Positions 58,615 to 63,164 of a stretch of 64,000 nt of DNA are shown here, piece after piece. Made by a program: the position numbers and the translations under genes. The stretch is from Lentisphaerota bacterium (GTDB lineage: Bacteria > Verrucomicrobiota > Lentisphaeria > Victivallales > Victivallaceae). The DNA is taken from the NCBI GenBank assembly GCA_015061605.1, contig SUWH01000003.1, positions 1 through 64,000 of the forward strand. The letters run 5' to 3'. Within the stretch, counting starts at the first letter, position 1. Every line of letters starts with the position of its first letter. Under the pieces are notes generated by a model. That model was not told where the DNA came from, searched no databases, and saw only the letters and a list, made by a program, of their open reading frames with translations.

Positions 58615-59361
58615 TTACATCAGCATGCCGCCATCGACATTGATGCACTGACCGGTGACATAGTCTGAATCCGGTGAGCAGAGGAAGTAGACCACGTTGG
58701 CAACATCTTCCGGTTTACCACCGCGCTTGGCGGGGATGATGGTAAGGAAAGCTTCGCGGGCAGCTTCGGGGAGCTGGGCGGTCATATCGGTGACGATGAA
58801 ACCGGGAGCAACAGCGTTGACCTGGATATTGCGGGCACCGAATTCTTTAGCGGTGGTTTTGGCAAGTGCGATAACACCGGCTTTACTGGCGGAATAGTTT
58901 GCCTGACCGACATTACCCATACGGCCGACGACGGAAGCGATATTGACGATCTTTCCGGCGCGCTGTTTCATCATCGGGCGGACGACAGCTTTGGTGAAGT
59001 TGAAAGTACCTTTGAGGTTGACGGAAATAACAGCATCCCACTGATCTTCAGTCATTTTGAGCATCAGAGTATCTTTGGTGATACCGGCGTTGTTGACGAG
59101 GATATCGACCTTGCCGAAATCGTTGACGACGGCGGCGACGGTGGCTTCGGCATCTTCCATTTTGGCGACGTTGGCGGCGTAGGCTTTGGCTTCAAAACCG
59201 GCGGCGTTGAATTCATCGGCGGTCTGCTGGGCGGTTTCGAGCAGGATGTCGACGATGGCGAGTTTTGCACCTTCGGCAGCGAGACGGGCGCAGATGGCTT
59301 TACCGATACCGCGGGCACCGCCGGTGACGATGGCGACTTTGTCTTTGAGAGTCTGGCACAT
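58615..59361 (-). CDS. fabG: 3-oxoacyl-[ACP] reductase
   Basis: A 248-residue short-chain dehydrogenase that reduces 3-oxoacyl-ACP in fatty acid elongation. NADP site TGGARGIG, VNNAGITKDTLMLKM, catalytic Ser in NIASVVGRMGN, YSASKAG (Tyr and Lys), APGFIVTDMT and the end GQCINVDGGMLM are the FabG blocks. The start at 59361 (MCQTLKDK) has GGAGAA eight bases before it; a further ATG at 59376 is less likely. It has its own strong promoter and no other fab gene beside it. Confidence 0.92.
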   Translation of the reverse strand: MCQTLKDKVAIVTGGARGIGKAICARLAAEGAKLAIVDILLETAQQTADEFNAAGFEAKAYAANVAKMEDAEATVAAVVNDFGKVDILVNNAGITKDTLMLKMTEDQWDAVISVNLKGTFNFTKAVVRPMMKQRAGKIVNIASVVGRMGNVGQANYSASKAGVIALAKTTAKEFGARNIQVNAVAPGFIVTDMTAQLPEAAREAFLTIIPAKRGGKPEDVANVVYFLCSPDSDYVTGQCINVDGGMLM

Positions 59362-59397
59362 AAATAAATTCTCCATGTTATTTGCAAGTTGTTATAC

Positions 59398-59426
59398 AAT
59401 ATAGCATACAATAAATGATTTTTCAA
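59398..59426 (-). promoter_or_regulatory. Promoter of fabG
   Basis: On the minus strand TTGAAA (59426-59421), 17 bases, extended -10 TGC-TATATT (59403-59398). Confidence 0.65.
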
Positions 59427-59429
59427 ATC

Positions 59430-59461
59430 AAAAACGGCGGAAGGAATGCCCCTGCCGCCGT
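59430..59461 (-). terminator. Intrinsic terminator of the GMP synthetase gene
   Basis: On the minus strand ACGGCGG (59461-... reading 59461-59455) pairs with CCGCCGT (59440-59434), 14-base loop, followed by four to five T. It sits between the guaA stop and the fabG promoter. Confidence 0.7.
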
Positions 59462-59482
59462 ATTGAGATCAAAATTTGCAGA

Positions 59483-60745
59483 TCATTCCCATTCGATGGT
59501 GCCGGGAGGCTTCTGGGTGATGTCGTAGACAACGCGGTTGACACCGTCAACTTCGCTGATGATACGTTTCATCATGATGTCCAGGAGAGCCCAGGGGAGC
59601 TGAACCACTTCGGCGGTGACGGCATCGACACTGTTGATGGAACGGATGGCGATGACGTAATCATAGGAACGCTGGCCGTTTTTGATACCGACGGTTTTCA
59701 CCGGAAGGAAGATGGCAAAAGTCTGCCAGGTTTTGTGATACCAGTCAGCTTTGATCAGCTCTTCGGTAACGATAGCATCGGCTTCGCGGAGTATTCTCAA
59801 AGTGTCACGTTCGATGGGGCCGACGTGGCGGACACCGAGGGAGGGACCGGGGAAGGGGTGGCGGTCGAGCAGTTCGGAGGGCATACCGAGCAATCTGCCG
59901 ACGGCGCGGACTTCATCTTTGAAGAGCCGTTCGACCGGTTCGACCAGTTTGAATTTGAGGTTTTCGGGGAGTCCGCCAACATTGTGGTGGCTCTTGATGA
60001 CGCCTTTGGGGTCACCGTCGAGGGGGATGCTTTCCAGAATATCGGGGTAGATGGTTCCCTGACCGAGGAATTCGGCACCGGTTTTAGCGGCGGCTTCGGC
60101 GAACACTTCAATAAATTCTTTACCGATGATCTTGCGTTTCTGTTCCGGATCGGCGACATTTTTGAGTTTGTCGAGGAAGCGGTCGGAAGCATCGATATAG
60201 CAGAGGTTCATTTTGAAGTTTCTGGCGAAAATCTTCTGAACCATTTCCGGTTCATTTTTGCGCAGCAGACCATGGTTGACGAAAACACAGGTGAGCTGAT
60301 CGCCGATGGCTTTGTGGAGCAAAGCGGCGACAACGGATGAGTCGACGCCGCCGGAAAGTCCGAGGACGACTTTGCCGTTGCCGACCTGGGCGCGGATATC
60401 GGCGATGGCTTCATCGATGAAGTTTTCCATTTTCCAGCTGCCGGAGCATTTGCAGGTATCGGTGCAGAAGTCAACAGCCTTATCCACATCGGCATTGCCA
60501 TTGGAAAGGTCAAGAGTCGGCAGATTGAGAGTGGCAAATTTTGCCATGGCTTCCGGACGGGCGGGAACTCCGGCATCGGCGCAGATGATCAGGCCGACGG
60601 GATTTTCCTGACTGACACGTTCAGCGGTGACGGTGTAGGGCATCACCATCGTGTAGATGTGACGGTCGCGGATGGCGCGGGCGAATTTCTGGATGTCGTT
60701 GCATCCGAAATTCAACAATACAACAGTTTCACGGGTCTGTTTCAT
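59483..60745 (-). CDS. guaA: GMP synthetase with degenerate, shortened glutaminase domain
   Basis: A 420-residue protein; usual GuaA has about 515-525. The synthetase part is complete: LGLSGGVDSSVVAALLH (PP-loop, 131-137), GKEFIEVF, QGTIYPDILES, KSHHNVGGLP, HPFPGPSLGVR and the end VYDITQKPPGTIEWE. The N-terminal about 100 residues still resemble the class I glutaminase start (TVVLLNFGCNDIQKFARAIR, GLIICA), but the nucleophile elbow GVCYG reads DLSNG (Ser81 for Cys), and the following roughly 105 residues, which carry the catalytic His and Glu, are missing: the chain jumps to FCTDTCKC. It should therefore use free ammonia or a separate glutaminase. There is no frameshift, and the gene has its own promoter and terminator. 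Confidence 0.93.
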   Translation of the reverse strand: MKQTRETVVLLNFGCNDIQKFARAIRDRHIYTMVMPYTVTAERVSQENPVGLIICADAGVPARPEAMAKFATLNLPTLDLSNGNADVDKAVDFCTDTCKCSGSWKMENFIDEAIADIRAQVGNGKVVLGLSGGVDSSVVAALLHKAIGDQLTCVFVNHGLLRKNEPEMVQKIFARNFKMNLCYIDASDRFLDKLKNVADPEQKRKIIGKEFIEVFAEAAAKTGAEFLGQGTIYPDILESIPLDGDPKGVIKSHHNVGGLPENLKFKLVEPVERLFKDEVRAVGRLLGMPSELLDRHPFPGPSLGVRHVGPIERDTLRILREADAIVTEELIKADWYHKTWQTFAIFLPVKTVGIKNGQRSYDYVIAIRSINSVDAVTAEVVQLPWALLDIMMKRIISEVDGVNRVVYDITQKPPGTIEWE

Positions 60746-60790
60746 AAATATCCTTCCAAATAGTTTGGTTTTGGATTTTGCTTATTTCAA

Positions 60791-60819
60791 AAAATACACC
60801 GGAAACGGTGATTTTTCAA
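60791..60819 (-). promoter_or_regulatory. Promoter of the GMP synthetase gene with internal dyad
   Basis: On the minus strand TTGAAA (60819-60814), 17 bases, TATTTT (60796-60791). The spacer contains the perfect dyad CACCG-GAAA-CGGTG (60797-60810), a possible operator. Confidence 0.5.
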
Positions 60820-60862
60820 GTTGAAAACAATGATTTTTTTCAATAATATTCACCGGAAGCTC

Positions 60863-60891
60863 TTGTAAAAAGAGTACACAGACAGTATATT
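60863..60891 (+). promoter_or_regulatory. Promoter of the HlyD-like gene
   Basis: TTGTAA (60863-60868), 17 bases, TATATT (60886-60891). Confidence 0.6.
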
Positions 60892-60946
60892 ACCGTATAA
60901 TTATCTTTATTGTTTTTGAAATTTGCATTCAGGGGGGATTTTTGTA

Positions 60947-62011
60947 ATGAAAAGTTGGGTCATTGCGTTACTCGGTGTGCTTGTCGGGATATTTGTCGCA
61001 GTTGCAGTGATTCTGGTCATGGGCAGTCAGGGCAGTTCAAACGGTAACAAGCCGGTAATTTCCCTGAAGCCGCAGAAAAAGGTCATCACCGGTTTCGGGT
61101 ATATCCGCGGAAGTTCGCAGTATGCGCTCAAAAACAAGTATGCCTCATTTGTTTCCAAAGTTCACATTTACTCCTATAAGCGGGTCAAAAAAGGTGATTG
61201 CATCCTTGAATACGACGACTACGATCTCCGGGTTAAAATCGCCGATGTTGAAAACGATATCGCAGCGATGAAAAAGGATATAGCGTTGCAGGAAACCAAA
61301 CTTCAACTGGTGAAACTTGATCCGCTTCCCTCGGATTACCGCAATATAAACTGGAAGACCGCCCGGGCCAAAGAGCTTCTGGAACGTACCGAAAACGAGT
61401 GGATCGTTTACCGCCGTCTGTACCGGAGCAAGAGTGTTTCCGATCTGGATATGCGCGGCAAAAAACAGGCTTATCTGGATGCGAAAGCCGCTTATCAAAT
61501 CACCGTCAGTGATCAGGAAAAGGTCAACAGTGGTTTGAAAAAACTTTATCTTTTGCAGGCGGAACAGCAGCTTGAACAACTTAAAACCAAGCTCGCCGGT
61601 CTGGAACGCGACCTTGAACTGCTCAATGAACAGCGCAAATACTACAAAATAATCGCTCCGCATGACGGCTTGATCCAGACTCACTCTGATACCGTCGGGG
61701 CATGGAACGCCGCGGCGACCGAAGCCGCCTGTCTGCACAAGGAAGCCCATTACAAACTTTACGCCTACTTTCCGGAAGAAGATATTCCTTATATAAAAGA
61801 CGGTATGAAAGCCAGATTTTTCAGCCATGATTCCGGAAAATGGTACGAGGCACAGGCTTTTGAATTGACCCGCACCCGGACAGCGGTTGGCGACGGGATC
61901 TACCATCTGGTGAAGTTTAAAGTCACCTCTGATATTTCCAAAGATATCCGTGTCGGCAAACAAGGTTCCATCCGCATCGAAGGTGCGGTAACGGTCGAGT
62001 TTGAAATTTAA
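60947..62011 (+). CDS. HlyD-family periplasmic adaptor/membrane fusion protein
   Basis: A 354-residue protein with one N-terminal membrane anchor (KSWVIALLGVLVGIFVAVAV). Then follow a first half of a lipoyl-like domain (SKVHIYSYKRVKKGDCILEYDD), a long alpha-hairpin with coiled coil (about residues 90-230), the second lipoyl half (YKIIAPHDGLIQTHSDTVG) and a beta-barrel (YKLYAYFPEEDIPYIKDGMKARF). This is the architecture of HlyD/EmrA-type adaptors linking an inner-membrane pump to the outer membrane. No pump or outer-membrane channel is adjacent, so its partner is unknown. The start at 60947 has AGGGGGG nine bases before it. Confidence 0.8.
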   Translation: MKSWVIALLGVLVGIFVAVAVILVMGSQGSSNGNKPVISLKPQKKVITGFGYIRGSSQYALKNKYASFVSKVHIYSYKRVKKGDCILEYDDYDLRVKIADVENDIAAMKKDIALQETKLQLVKLDPLPSDYRNINWKTARAKELLERTENEWIVYRRLYRSKSVSDLDMRGKKQAYLDAKAAYQITVSDQEKVNSGLKKLYLLQAEQQLEQLKTKLAGLERDLELLNEQRKYYKIIAPHDGLIQTHSDTVGAWNAAATEAACLHKEAHYKLYAYFPEEDIPYIKDGMKARFFSHDSGKWYEAQAFELTRTRTAVGDGIYHLVKFKVTSDISKDIRVGKQGSIRIEGAVTVEFEI

Positions 62012-62090: not shown

Positions 62091-63164
62091 TTATCCCTTT
62101 AACTTTTCGCGGCAGAGCTGGGCGCGGAGGATGTCCCGGGCATTGGAGTTGAGCTTGTGTCCGGCGTTTTTCTGCAAATGTGCTTCGCCGGTGGCGATAA
62201 AAAGTTCATTGACTTTGGCTAAATCTATTGCACTGAAAAGCCCAAGATCGACGCCGAGCCGCACGCCGGAAAGGGATTGCATGGCTTCTTTGCCGGAAAG
62301 TTTGTAGCTGTGGCGCAGCACACCGTAGGCTCTGCCGATGTAATCAAGCAGGCTGTACCGGTCATTGTCGAGCAGGGTTTGTCTGGCGCGTTTTTCGTGG
62401 TAGATGATTTGTTCAATGACCGAAGCAAGATCATTGATGGTTTTTTCTTCACTTTCGCCGAGGGTGGACTGGTTGGATATCTGGAACAAATTTCCGAGAT
62501 TTTCCGAACCTTCACCGAAAATACCGCGTGCCGCCAGATGAAGTTTATTTATCCCGTGGATGGTCGGGGCGATCTGTCCGGAAAGCACCAACCCGGGCAG
62601 GTGGAGCATCACTGAAGCGCGCATTCCGGTACCGACATTGGTGGGGCAACTGGTGAGATAACCCAATTGTTCATCAAAAGCGTAATCGATTTTCTGACTC
62701 AAGGCGTCGTCGATAGCACTGATTTCGGAGTAGACTTCGGGAAGCTGGAATCCGGGGCGGATGGACTGCATCCGGATCTGATCCTCTTCATTGATCATAA
62801 TGGAACAGCGTTCAAGCGGGCAGACCAACAGATTTTTTCCGGCAGCTTCGCCGGAGATGAATTCACTGCTTGCCAGCCGCCGTTCCAGAAAAATCTTGCG
62901 GGAAGTTTCATCGAGAGCTGACAAGTCGAATTCCCGGCATTCGCCGTCAAAGTCAAGGATATTTCCGCTTTTTACCGCATCGGAAACGATTTGGCAGATT
63001 TCCTGTTTTTCCTCTGCATCAGCAGAGCAGGGGAAGCGGTGGTGTGCCAGATTGCGCGCCAGCCGGACACGGGAGGAGATTGCAATGCCGTCACCGGAAA
63101 CGGCATTAGTGTTATCGAGGAAACTTACCGGACGGGAGAGGAGTTCTTCAATAGTGCCAAGCAT
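62091..63164 (-). CDS. mcsB: Protein-arginine kinase McsB
   Basis: A 357-residue phosphagen-kinase-fold enzyme that phosphorylates arginines on proteins, in Firmicutes marking them for ClpCP degradation. Landmarks: ISSRVRLARNLAHHRFP, NEEDQIRMQSIRPG, the catalytic Cys in YLTSCPTNVGTGMRASVMLHLP and GSENLGNLFQISNQSTLG. The C-terminal DGVRLGxDLG-type allosteric segment is SLSGVRLGVDLGLFSA. It starts two bases after the mcsA stop. Neither clpC nor ctsR lies in the window. Confidence 0.92.
   Translation of the reverse strand: MLGTIEELLSRPVSFLDNTNAVSGDGIAISSRVRLARNLAHHRFPCSADAEEKQEICQIVSDAVKSGNILDFDGECREFDLSALDETSRKIFLERRLASSEFISGEAAGKNLLVCPLERCSIMINEEDQIRMQSIRPGFQLPEVYSEISAIDDALSQKIDYAFDEQLGYLTSCPTNVGTGMRASVMLHLPGLVLSGQIAPTIHGINKLHLAARGIFGEGSENLGNLFQISNQSTLGESEEKTINDLASVIEQIIYHEKRARQTLLDNDRYSLLDYIGRAYGVLRHSYKLSGKEAMQSLSGVRLGVDLGLFSAIDLAKVNELFIATGEAHLQKNAGHKLNSNARDILRAQLCREKLKG

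Follow-up and report, generated by a model that had tools for sequence, protein, structure and literature searches.

The guaA gene studied here very probably encodes a functional GMP synthetase that would depend on ammonia, as we infer from a protein whose synthetase half is complete and whose glutaminase site is gone. "The window" below means the whole stretch of DNA analyzed, 64,000 nucleotides from a Lentisphaerota bacterium. GMP synthetase is a textbook case of a fused glutamine amidotransferase (GATase), and it has been studied for its allosteric coupling and as a drug target. In the short protein (form B1), the synthetase half would adenylate XMP using ATP, and free ammonia from the cytosol, not ammonia tunnelled from glutamine, would then displace AMP to give GMP. 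The first ~57 residues, a remnant of the glutaminase domain, probably stay folded on the synthetase, as helix alpha-1 of the normal enzyme packs on helices alpha-11 and alpha-12, and this stub might support or cap the active site. A natural family that lacks the glutaminase but keeps a selected fragment of it offers a direct route to separating the parts of the enzyme that couple glutamine from those that carry out the chemistry. It also lets one ask if free ammonia can sustain purine amination in bacteria.

Gene Architecture

The features of the gene are listed in Table 1. The open reading frame begins with ATG and has no internal stops, and positions 59000-61200 contain no N. The GuaA C-terminal model TIGR00884 (NCBIfam) matched residues 108-420 over positions 1-310 of 310 (458.8 bits, cut-off 338.75), and PF00958 (Pfam) was matched over positions 1-92 of 92 (130 bits). 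The N-terminal GATase model TIGR00888 matched residues 8-61 only, over positions 1-54 of 188 (24.1 bits, cut-off 172.15), and Pfam reported no GATase family in the protein at E up to 1. In the alignment to E. coli GuaA (1gpm), residues 6-56 correspond to 8-58 and residues 93-420 to 197-525, and thus ~102 residues are missing between the two blocks. The deleted block held the nucleophile elbow, the catalytic His and the catalytic Glu of the glutaminase.

Table 1. Short guaA and its flanking features in the window.
Feature	Position	Strand	Evidence
Short guaA (form B1), 420 aa + stop	59483..60745	(-)	ORF list, Pfam, NCBIfam, E. coli alignment
Retained N-terminal GATase stub, residues 1-57, with interface helix alpha-1 equivalent	60575..60745	(-)	TIGR00888 positions 1-54, dN/dS
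Variable stretch, residues 58-92; nucleophile elbow and next ~100 residues missing here	60470..60574	(-)	Alignment, dN/dS
Conserved domain linker F93..C98.C100...W104	60434..60469	(-)	Alignments
Complete synthetase half (N-type ATP pyrophosphatase + C-terminal domain), residues 105-420	59486..60433	(-)	TIGR00884, PF00958
ATP pyrophosphatase P-loop SGGVDS, residues 131-136	60338..60355	(-)	Invariant, 37-row alignment
Helix alpha-11 motif DILES, residues 235-239	60029..60043	(-)	D235, E238, S239 invariant in 50/50 short rows
Lid motif IKSHHN, residues 250-255	59981..59998	(-)	Six of six positions invariant, 50/50 short rows
XMP-contact loop, residues 353-360, GIKNGQRS	59666..59689	(-)	Alignments of short versus full-length rows
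GGAAGG, likely ribosome-binding site	60752..60757	(-)	Read from sequence
Possible terminator: stem ACGGCGG/CCGCCGT, then T-run	59426..59461	(-)	GC-rich hairpin read by eye

The first-pass annotation had described the product of this gene as a GMP synthetase that is intact and conserved apart from a lost glutaminase site, and that core reading was borne out. It correctly placed the retained start of the N-terminal domain and the resumption of the sequence at FCTDTCKC, the equivalent of FVRDICQC in E. coli GuaA, and its estimate of about 105 absent residues, with the catalytic His and Glu among them, is close to our alignment. Its picture of a fully conserved synthetase half agrees with the full-length TIGR00884 match and with the known residues, which are invariant in all 50 short rows. 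An intact Cys-His-Glu triad was looked for in the full alignment: the His and Glu columns are gapped in all 50 short rows, and the Cys column has Cys in none.

The annotation had also read a Cys-to-Ser change in the nucleophile elbow, which does not hold as a conserved substitution. The elbow itself is gone, and the position aligned to the nucleophile Cys is S in 8 of 31 short proteins, the remaining 23 having D, R, T, A, I, E, M, G, K, V or N there; a second alignment gave S in 10 of 50. A conserved Cys-to-Ser change was thus rejected as an accident of alignment at a position that holds many residues among the relatives. A promoter and a terminator belonging to the gene itself are hinted at by one promoter-like match 5' of the start (60819-60791(-), 9 of 12 positions, with five such matches in the region versus 1.6 expected by chance) and by the hairpin and T-run read by eye, whose loop is 14 nt long (the hairpin scan covered loops of up to 8 nt).

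Selection on the Retained Stub

Selection was estimated from 14 close pairs, which share sequences and several of which are saturated (dS >1). For these, dN/dS was 0.02-0.07 over residues 105-420 (14 of 14 pairs). Over residues 1-57, all but one of 13 usable pairs had 0.09 or less, the exception having 0.22, and over residues 58-92 the range was 0.05-0.51 (12 usable pairs). Mean pairwise identity among 31 B1 rows was 83%, 66% and 28% for the same three segments. The low dN/dS of the stub, near that of the synthetase, together with its 66% identity, indicates that selection maintains it, if less tightly than the synthetase, and the retained half-domain looks functional. In full-length enzymes, helix alpha-1 is described as contributing to the domain interface (PMC10526850, section 6). 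In its (K/R)(K/R)xRE motif, 47 of 49 readable B1 rows no longer have the second basic residue; 38 of 39 readable full-length rows have Arg there. This loss is as expected if coupling to glutamine has gone.

Distribution of Short GuaA

One contig scan yielded 42 loci, 31 of which (L002-L032, two of them partial) had the short form. Their record titles name Lentisphaerae, Lentisphaeria, Victivallis, Victivallaceae and Oligosphaera, plus one Verrucomicrobia MAG. Two isolates carry B1, Victivallis vadensis DSM 14823 (L008) and Oligosphaera ethanolica DSM 24202 (L024), and both of their genomes also contain a full-length GuaA. Short GuaA is a natural, clade-wide form and not an assembly error.

For the class, 148 genomes were sampled evenly out of a larger set, and B1 was present in at least 64 of them (a lower bound, given fragments), spanning 24 genera and three families. 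TIGR00888 exceeded its cut-off in 104 of the 148, mostly in long frames and in a few short ones. Thirty-six of the 64 carriers had both B1 and such a match, and 28 genomes from nine genera, the window genome included, had B1 without one; these are called short-only below. Twelve of the 28 are at least 90% complete. Among the 77 sampled genomes with at least 90% completeness and at most 5% contamination, 56 had TIGR00888 over cut-off, 12 had B1 only and nine were in neither group. The short gene is the sole match to the query in 27 short-only genomes; G070 has a second. The window genome is a draft of 52 contigs at 88.7% completeness. A full-length copy could be missing from any one of the draft short-only genomes, but hardly from all 28.

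The remaining 16 genomes had neither B1 nor a full-length match over cut-off. Six of them carry form C, a synthetase-only GuaA of ~326 aa; G067 has a fragment of the synthetase part, G104 has a short B1-like fragment, and eight are unclear or matchless. Loci of this bacterial form C include L133, L156:8384-9358 and L174. Across the genomes, form C is the sole match in G039, G063, G086, G108, G136, G159 and G171 and the sole sizeable match in G047. It stands alongside a full-length copy in G172, and in G115 it lies directly downstream of full-length guaA. Two other forms, B2 (G127, G101) and B3 (G043), keep the stub, which ends at about the break point of B1.

Search for a Glutaminase Partner

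The presence of a separate glutaminase was investigated by whole-genome profile search. TIGR00888 exceeded its cut-off in none of the 28 short-only genomes, among which drafts may miss genes, versus all 14 control genomes, which included four archaea, M. jannaschii among them. In the window genome, specifically, neither a stand-alone GuaA-type glutaminase nor a second, full-length guaA was found over cut-off. All 28 short-only genomes had TIGR00888 matches below the cut-off (E 5e-4 to 3e-25, the best being 2.6e-25 in G105). Those with an assigned identity, a set apart from the matches in G040, G044, G105, G117 and others, were the stub, Peptidase_C26 or TrpG/PabA. The single PF00117 match of the window genome is a Peptidase_C26.

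A further scan took eight class I GATase-family proteins from the genus, of which six came from genomes in which CTP synthase was not found. The stand-alone GATase of G078 is a TrpG/PabA, with 201.2 bits to TIGR00566 (cut-off 121.05) and 88.3 of the 172.15 bits called for by TIGR00888. The others were Peptidase_C26 (G034, G164, G137, G170), HisH (G047) and TrpG/PabA (the cluster genomes G124 and G080; the gene order of G124 is given below). PF00117 had no match in 7 of the 34 genus genomes, five of which carry B1. The class II glutaminase family PF13522 was present in 30 of 34 genus genomes, and the protein in the window genome is asparagine-synthase-like. The search took in class I in the 28 genomes and class II in the genus.

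A partner encoded in an operon with short guaA was considered and rejected. Leaving aside guaA itself and its antisense frames, no neighboring gene was shared by more than 5 of the 32 B1 loci, several of which are short; a fabG-like gene occurred at 5 of 32 and an HlyD-like gene at 4 of 32.

Conserved Residues and the XMP Loop

Twelve residues of the synthetase half were followed in the 50 B1 rows and all are invariant: D235, E238, K251, H253, H254, N255, K276, R359, R404, K412, E418 and E420. They were equated to residues in PMC10526850 by motif or by distance from the C-terminus, with D235 and E238 matched to Pf D371 and E374, and the matched residues are reported there to be required for forming adenyl-XMP or for binding XMP (sections 5 and 6).

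The loop that contacts XMP has changed. The GVMGDxRT of full-length rows has become GIKNGQRS in the protein encoded in the window, with Gly356 and Asp357 lost and Arg359 kept; by our count, positions 356 and 357 correspond to Gly461 and Asp462 of E. coli GuaA. Eighty-six synthetase columns are invariant in the 41 full-length rows, and B1, B2 and B3+C each lack seven of these. Three losses (M355, G356 and D379) are common to all three groups, compared with 0.046 expected under independent draws; none of 100,000 simulated draws gave as many, a descriptive figure that ignores shared ancestry and unequal column rates. Only G356 among the three is kept by the five solved glutamine enzymes compared, including the archaeal two-subunit 2dpl. 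It lies in the XMP-contact loop that corresponds, by distance from the C-terminus, to Mj Gly243-Glu250. Position 356 is Gly in 41 of 41 full-length rows and in 0 of 65 glutaminase-free rows, and it is Asn or Asp in all 50 B1 rows.

Phylogeny

Trees were built from a 106-row alignment of 148 ORFs, with duplicates and cores shorter than 300 residues left out; the full-length rows L033 and L188 are trimmed at an inner Met, which leaves 39 and not 41 readable N-termini. The first tree had 83 rows, with rows at least 95% identical removed and distant outgroups in, and the second had 56 rows, with the distant outgroup rows out and B1 thinned from 34 to 16. B1 was monophyletic in both (100/100 and 99/97) and was nested within the full-length enzymes of its class, at a place with modest support (93/54 and 91/79). 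Its stem branch is long (0.67 in the first tree).

B1, B2 and B3+C fell apart in the tree with distant outgroups and formed one clade, at 100/99, in the tree that left them out. An AU test did not reject a single clade of the three (p 0.156). The first tree brings long branches together, and in the second such branches may attract one another. From these trees, one to three origins of the glutaminase-free forms would fit, and we do not claim convergence of the deletion limits or of the loop change.

Nitrogen Source and Alternative Explanations

If short GuaA works on ammonia, the short-only relatives of the gut bacterium Victivallis probably make guanine nucleotides with free ammonia. PF00478 (IMPDH/GMP reductase) was detected in 27 of the 28 short-only genomes, the miss being G153, which is 80% complete. 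The PF00478 protein of the window genome is a CBS-containing IMP dehydrogenase (TIGR01302, 564.9 bits), and hence XMP can be made there. In all GMP synthetases studied, according to PMC10526850, the ATPPase module works with external ammonia independently of the GATase. The Km values for NH4+ given there are 174 mM for the human enzyme, 103 mM for E. coli, 26 mM for M. tuberculosis and 10.8 mM for P. falciparum. Given this poor affinity, a dedicated ammonia enzyme would need either better affinity or ammonia-rich surroundings. A glutamine-synthetase-family protein (PF00120) was present in 34 of 34 genus genomes, so a lack of glutamine is no obvious reason for the loss of the glutaminase.

Of the two nitrogen sources proposed in the first-pass annotation, ammonia and a separate glutaminase subunit, free ammonia is the one that the searches favor over a GuaA-type glutaminase. 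We consider it unlikely that a glutaminase from a different family supplies the ammonia by docking on the stub, in the manner of the archaeal two-subunit type but with an unrelated partner. A conserved stub with the equivalent of the interface helix, under selection, is what docking would call for; class I glutaminase-fold proteins do occur in short-only genomes (Peptidase_C26, and TrpG/PabA in G078), and some of the weak TIGR00888 matches have no assigned identity. Against such a partner, TIGR00888 separates the short-only genomes (0 of 28) from the controls (14 of 14), the 32 loci have no widely common neighbor gene, PF00117 is absent from seven genus genomes, five of them B1 carriers, and in 47 of 49 readable short rows the alpha-1 coupling motif is missing its second basic residue.

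It is more doubtful still that short GuaA is a paralogue acting on another substrate or in regulation, with GMP supplied by salvage of guanine or guanosine. The long stem branch (0.67) and the full-length GuaA found in 36 of 64 B1 carriers would suit a paralogue; the invariance of the known substrate and catalytic residues, the retention of PF00478 in 27 of 28 short-only genomes and the strong purifying selection on the synthetase would not. To an assembly deletion or a decaying gene we attach practically no weight. The sole point in its favor is that the assembly of the window is a 52-contig draft. The first-pass annotation had raised a deletion in this one contig as a possible objection, yet the same architecture recurs in 31 of the 42 loci, in separate records and two isolates, and at least 64 of the 148 sampled genomes have it. 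Its statement that the gene is not decaying agrees with the intact frame, with purifying selection (synthetase dN/dS 0.02-0.07 in 14 of 14 pairs) and with a form that is common across the class.

Comparison with Known Synthetases

Short GuaA shares the synthetase domain, catalytic residues and C-terminal domain of two-domain GuaA (NF000848/PRK00074; E. coli 1gpm), but it lacks the glutaminase triad, with ~102 residues gone. NF000848, the glutamine-hydrolyzing equivalog, still matched it at 522.1 bits (cut-off 400), and one truncated protein each of B1, B2, B3 and C, when scanned, all passed as 'glutamine-hydrolyzing GMP synthase' (4 of 4). Automatic annotation will therefore mislead. Short GuaA should act in the manner of ammonia-dependent synthetases, and the glutaminase test that defines the enzyme named in its annotation is one that it fails. 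If this is true, both the name 'glutamine-hydrolyzing GMP synthase' and any metabolic model that relies on it are in error for these organisms.

Archaeal GuaAb (P. horikoshii 2dpl, M. jannaschii 6jp9) is likewise a synthetase without a fused active glutaminase. It pairs with a separate glutaminase subunit (PMC10526850, section 3), whereas a separate GuaA-type glutaminase gene, the mark of the two-subunit enzyme, was not found over cut-off in the window genome (G000) or the other 27 short-only genomes. Two further differences are that 2dpl keeps the Gly-Asp of the XMP loop, of which short GuaA has lost the Gly, and that the two-subunit type begins at the ATPPase domain, whereas short GuaA retains the 57-residue GATase stub under purifying selection. 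Type N NadE (PMC3376133) is also an N-type ATP pyrophosphatase without a glutaminase, although it differs in substrate and family, and the same free-ammonia logic would apply here. As in type N, the synthetase domain is intact and a dedicated glutaminase was neither fused nor detected (class I; class II in the genus). The short form of NAD synthetase makes up 44% of arrangements and is proposed to be ancestral (PMC3376133), unlike short GuaA, which nests inside the full-length enzymes of one class.

In the survey table of PMC3376133, which covers 730 genomes, GMP synthetase is 100% fused to its glutaminase and no glutaminase-free form of it is entered; NAD synthetase alone has such an entry. 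The types of GMP synthetase described in PMC10526850 are the two-domain and the two-subunit enzyme. No report of a glutaminase-free bacterial GMP synthetase was found among the matches listed, as judged by titles and abstract openings (most subscription papers and all bioRxiv preprints lay outside the search), and none of the literature retrieved with Lentisphaer/Victivallis terms concerned short GuaA by title or abstract opening.

Nucleotide and Nitrogen Genes in the Genus

Related pathways were compared across 34 genomes of the genus of the window, several of which are less than 80% complete. CTP synthase (PF06418) was found in 6 of the 34 (2 of 14 high-quality genomes) and the CarA N-domain in the same six, so both went undetected in 28. 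The CarB domain PF02787 was found in all 34 genomes, with two CarB matches in five of the six genomes that have CTP synthase (one partial) and in two of the other 28 (one weak). G000 (C35) encodes a complete CarB at L203:5491-8700 (+) (1070 aa, 1480.5 bits), and CarA was undetected there; this CarB is possibly an ammonia-dependent carbamoyl-phosphate synthetase.

In G124 (L155:1-11442) the gene order is GSIII, PurF-like, CarA, PyrG, CarB and full-length GuaA, and glutamine synthetase thus adjoins glutamine-dependent nucleotide enzymes. The PurF-like protein (L155:2034-3905 (+)) scores 135.5 bits versus the purF equivalog cut-off of 350, in a match that begins at residue 145. G000 encodes two glutamine synthetases, a GSIII and one that is divergent and type I-like (210 of 429 bits), at L217:5718-7214 (+) and L218:3410-5602 (+). 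Of the 28 genus genomes without CTP synthase, 27 have the type I-like protein (one of them in two fragments), and none of the six with CTP synthase has it. This pattern fits a shift away from glutamine in nucleotide synthesis, and it may equally reflect nucleotide scavenging. We can imagine, tentatively, a lineage-wide move of nucleotide amination from glutamine to ammonia, in which the GSIII-purF-carA-pyrG-carB-guaA block present in relatives was lost and a glutaminase-free GMP synthetase, with or without a stub, and a CarB working without CarA were left; the stub would then be a lid that increases ammonia affinity, and the loss of Gly356 a mark of decoupling.

Elsewhere in the window, a 357-aa ORF at 62091-63164 (-) may encode a McsB-type protein arginine kinase.
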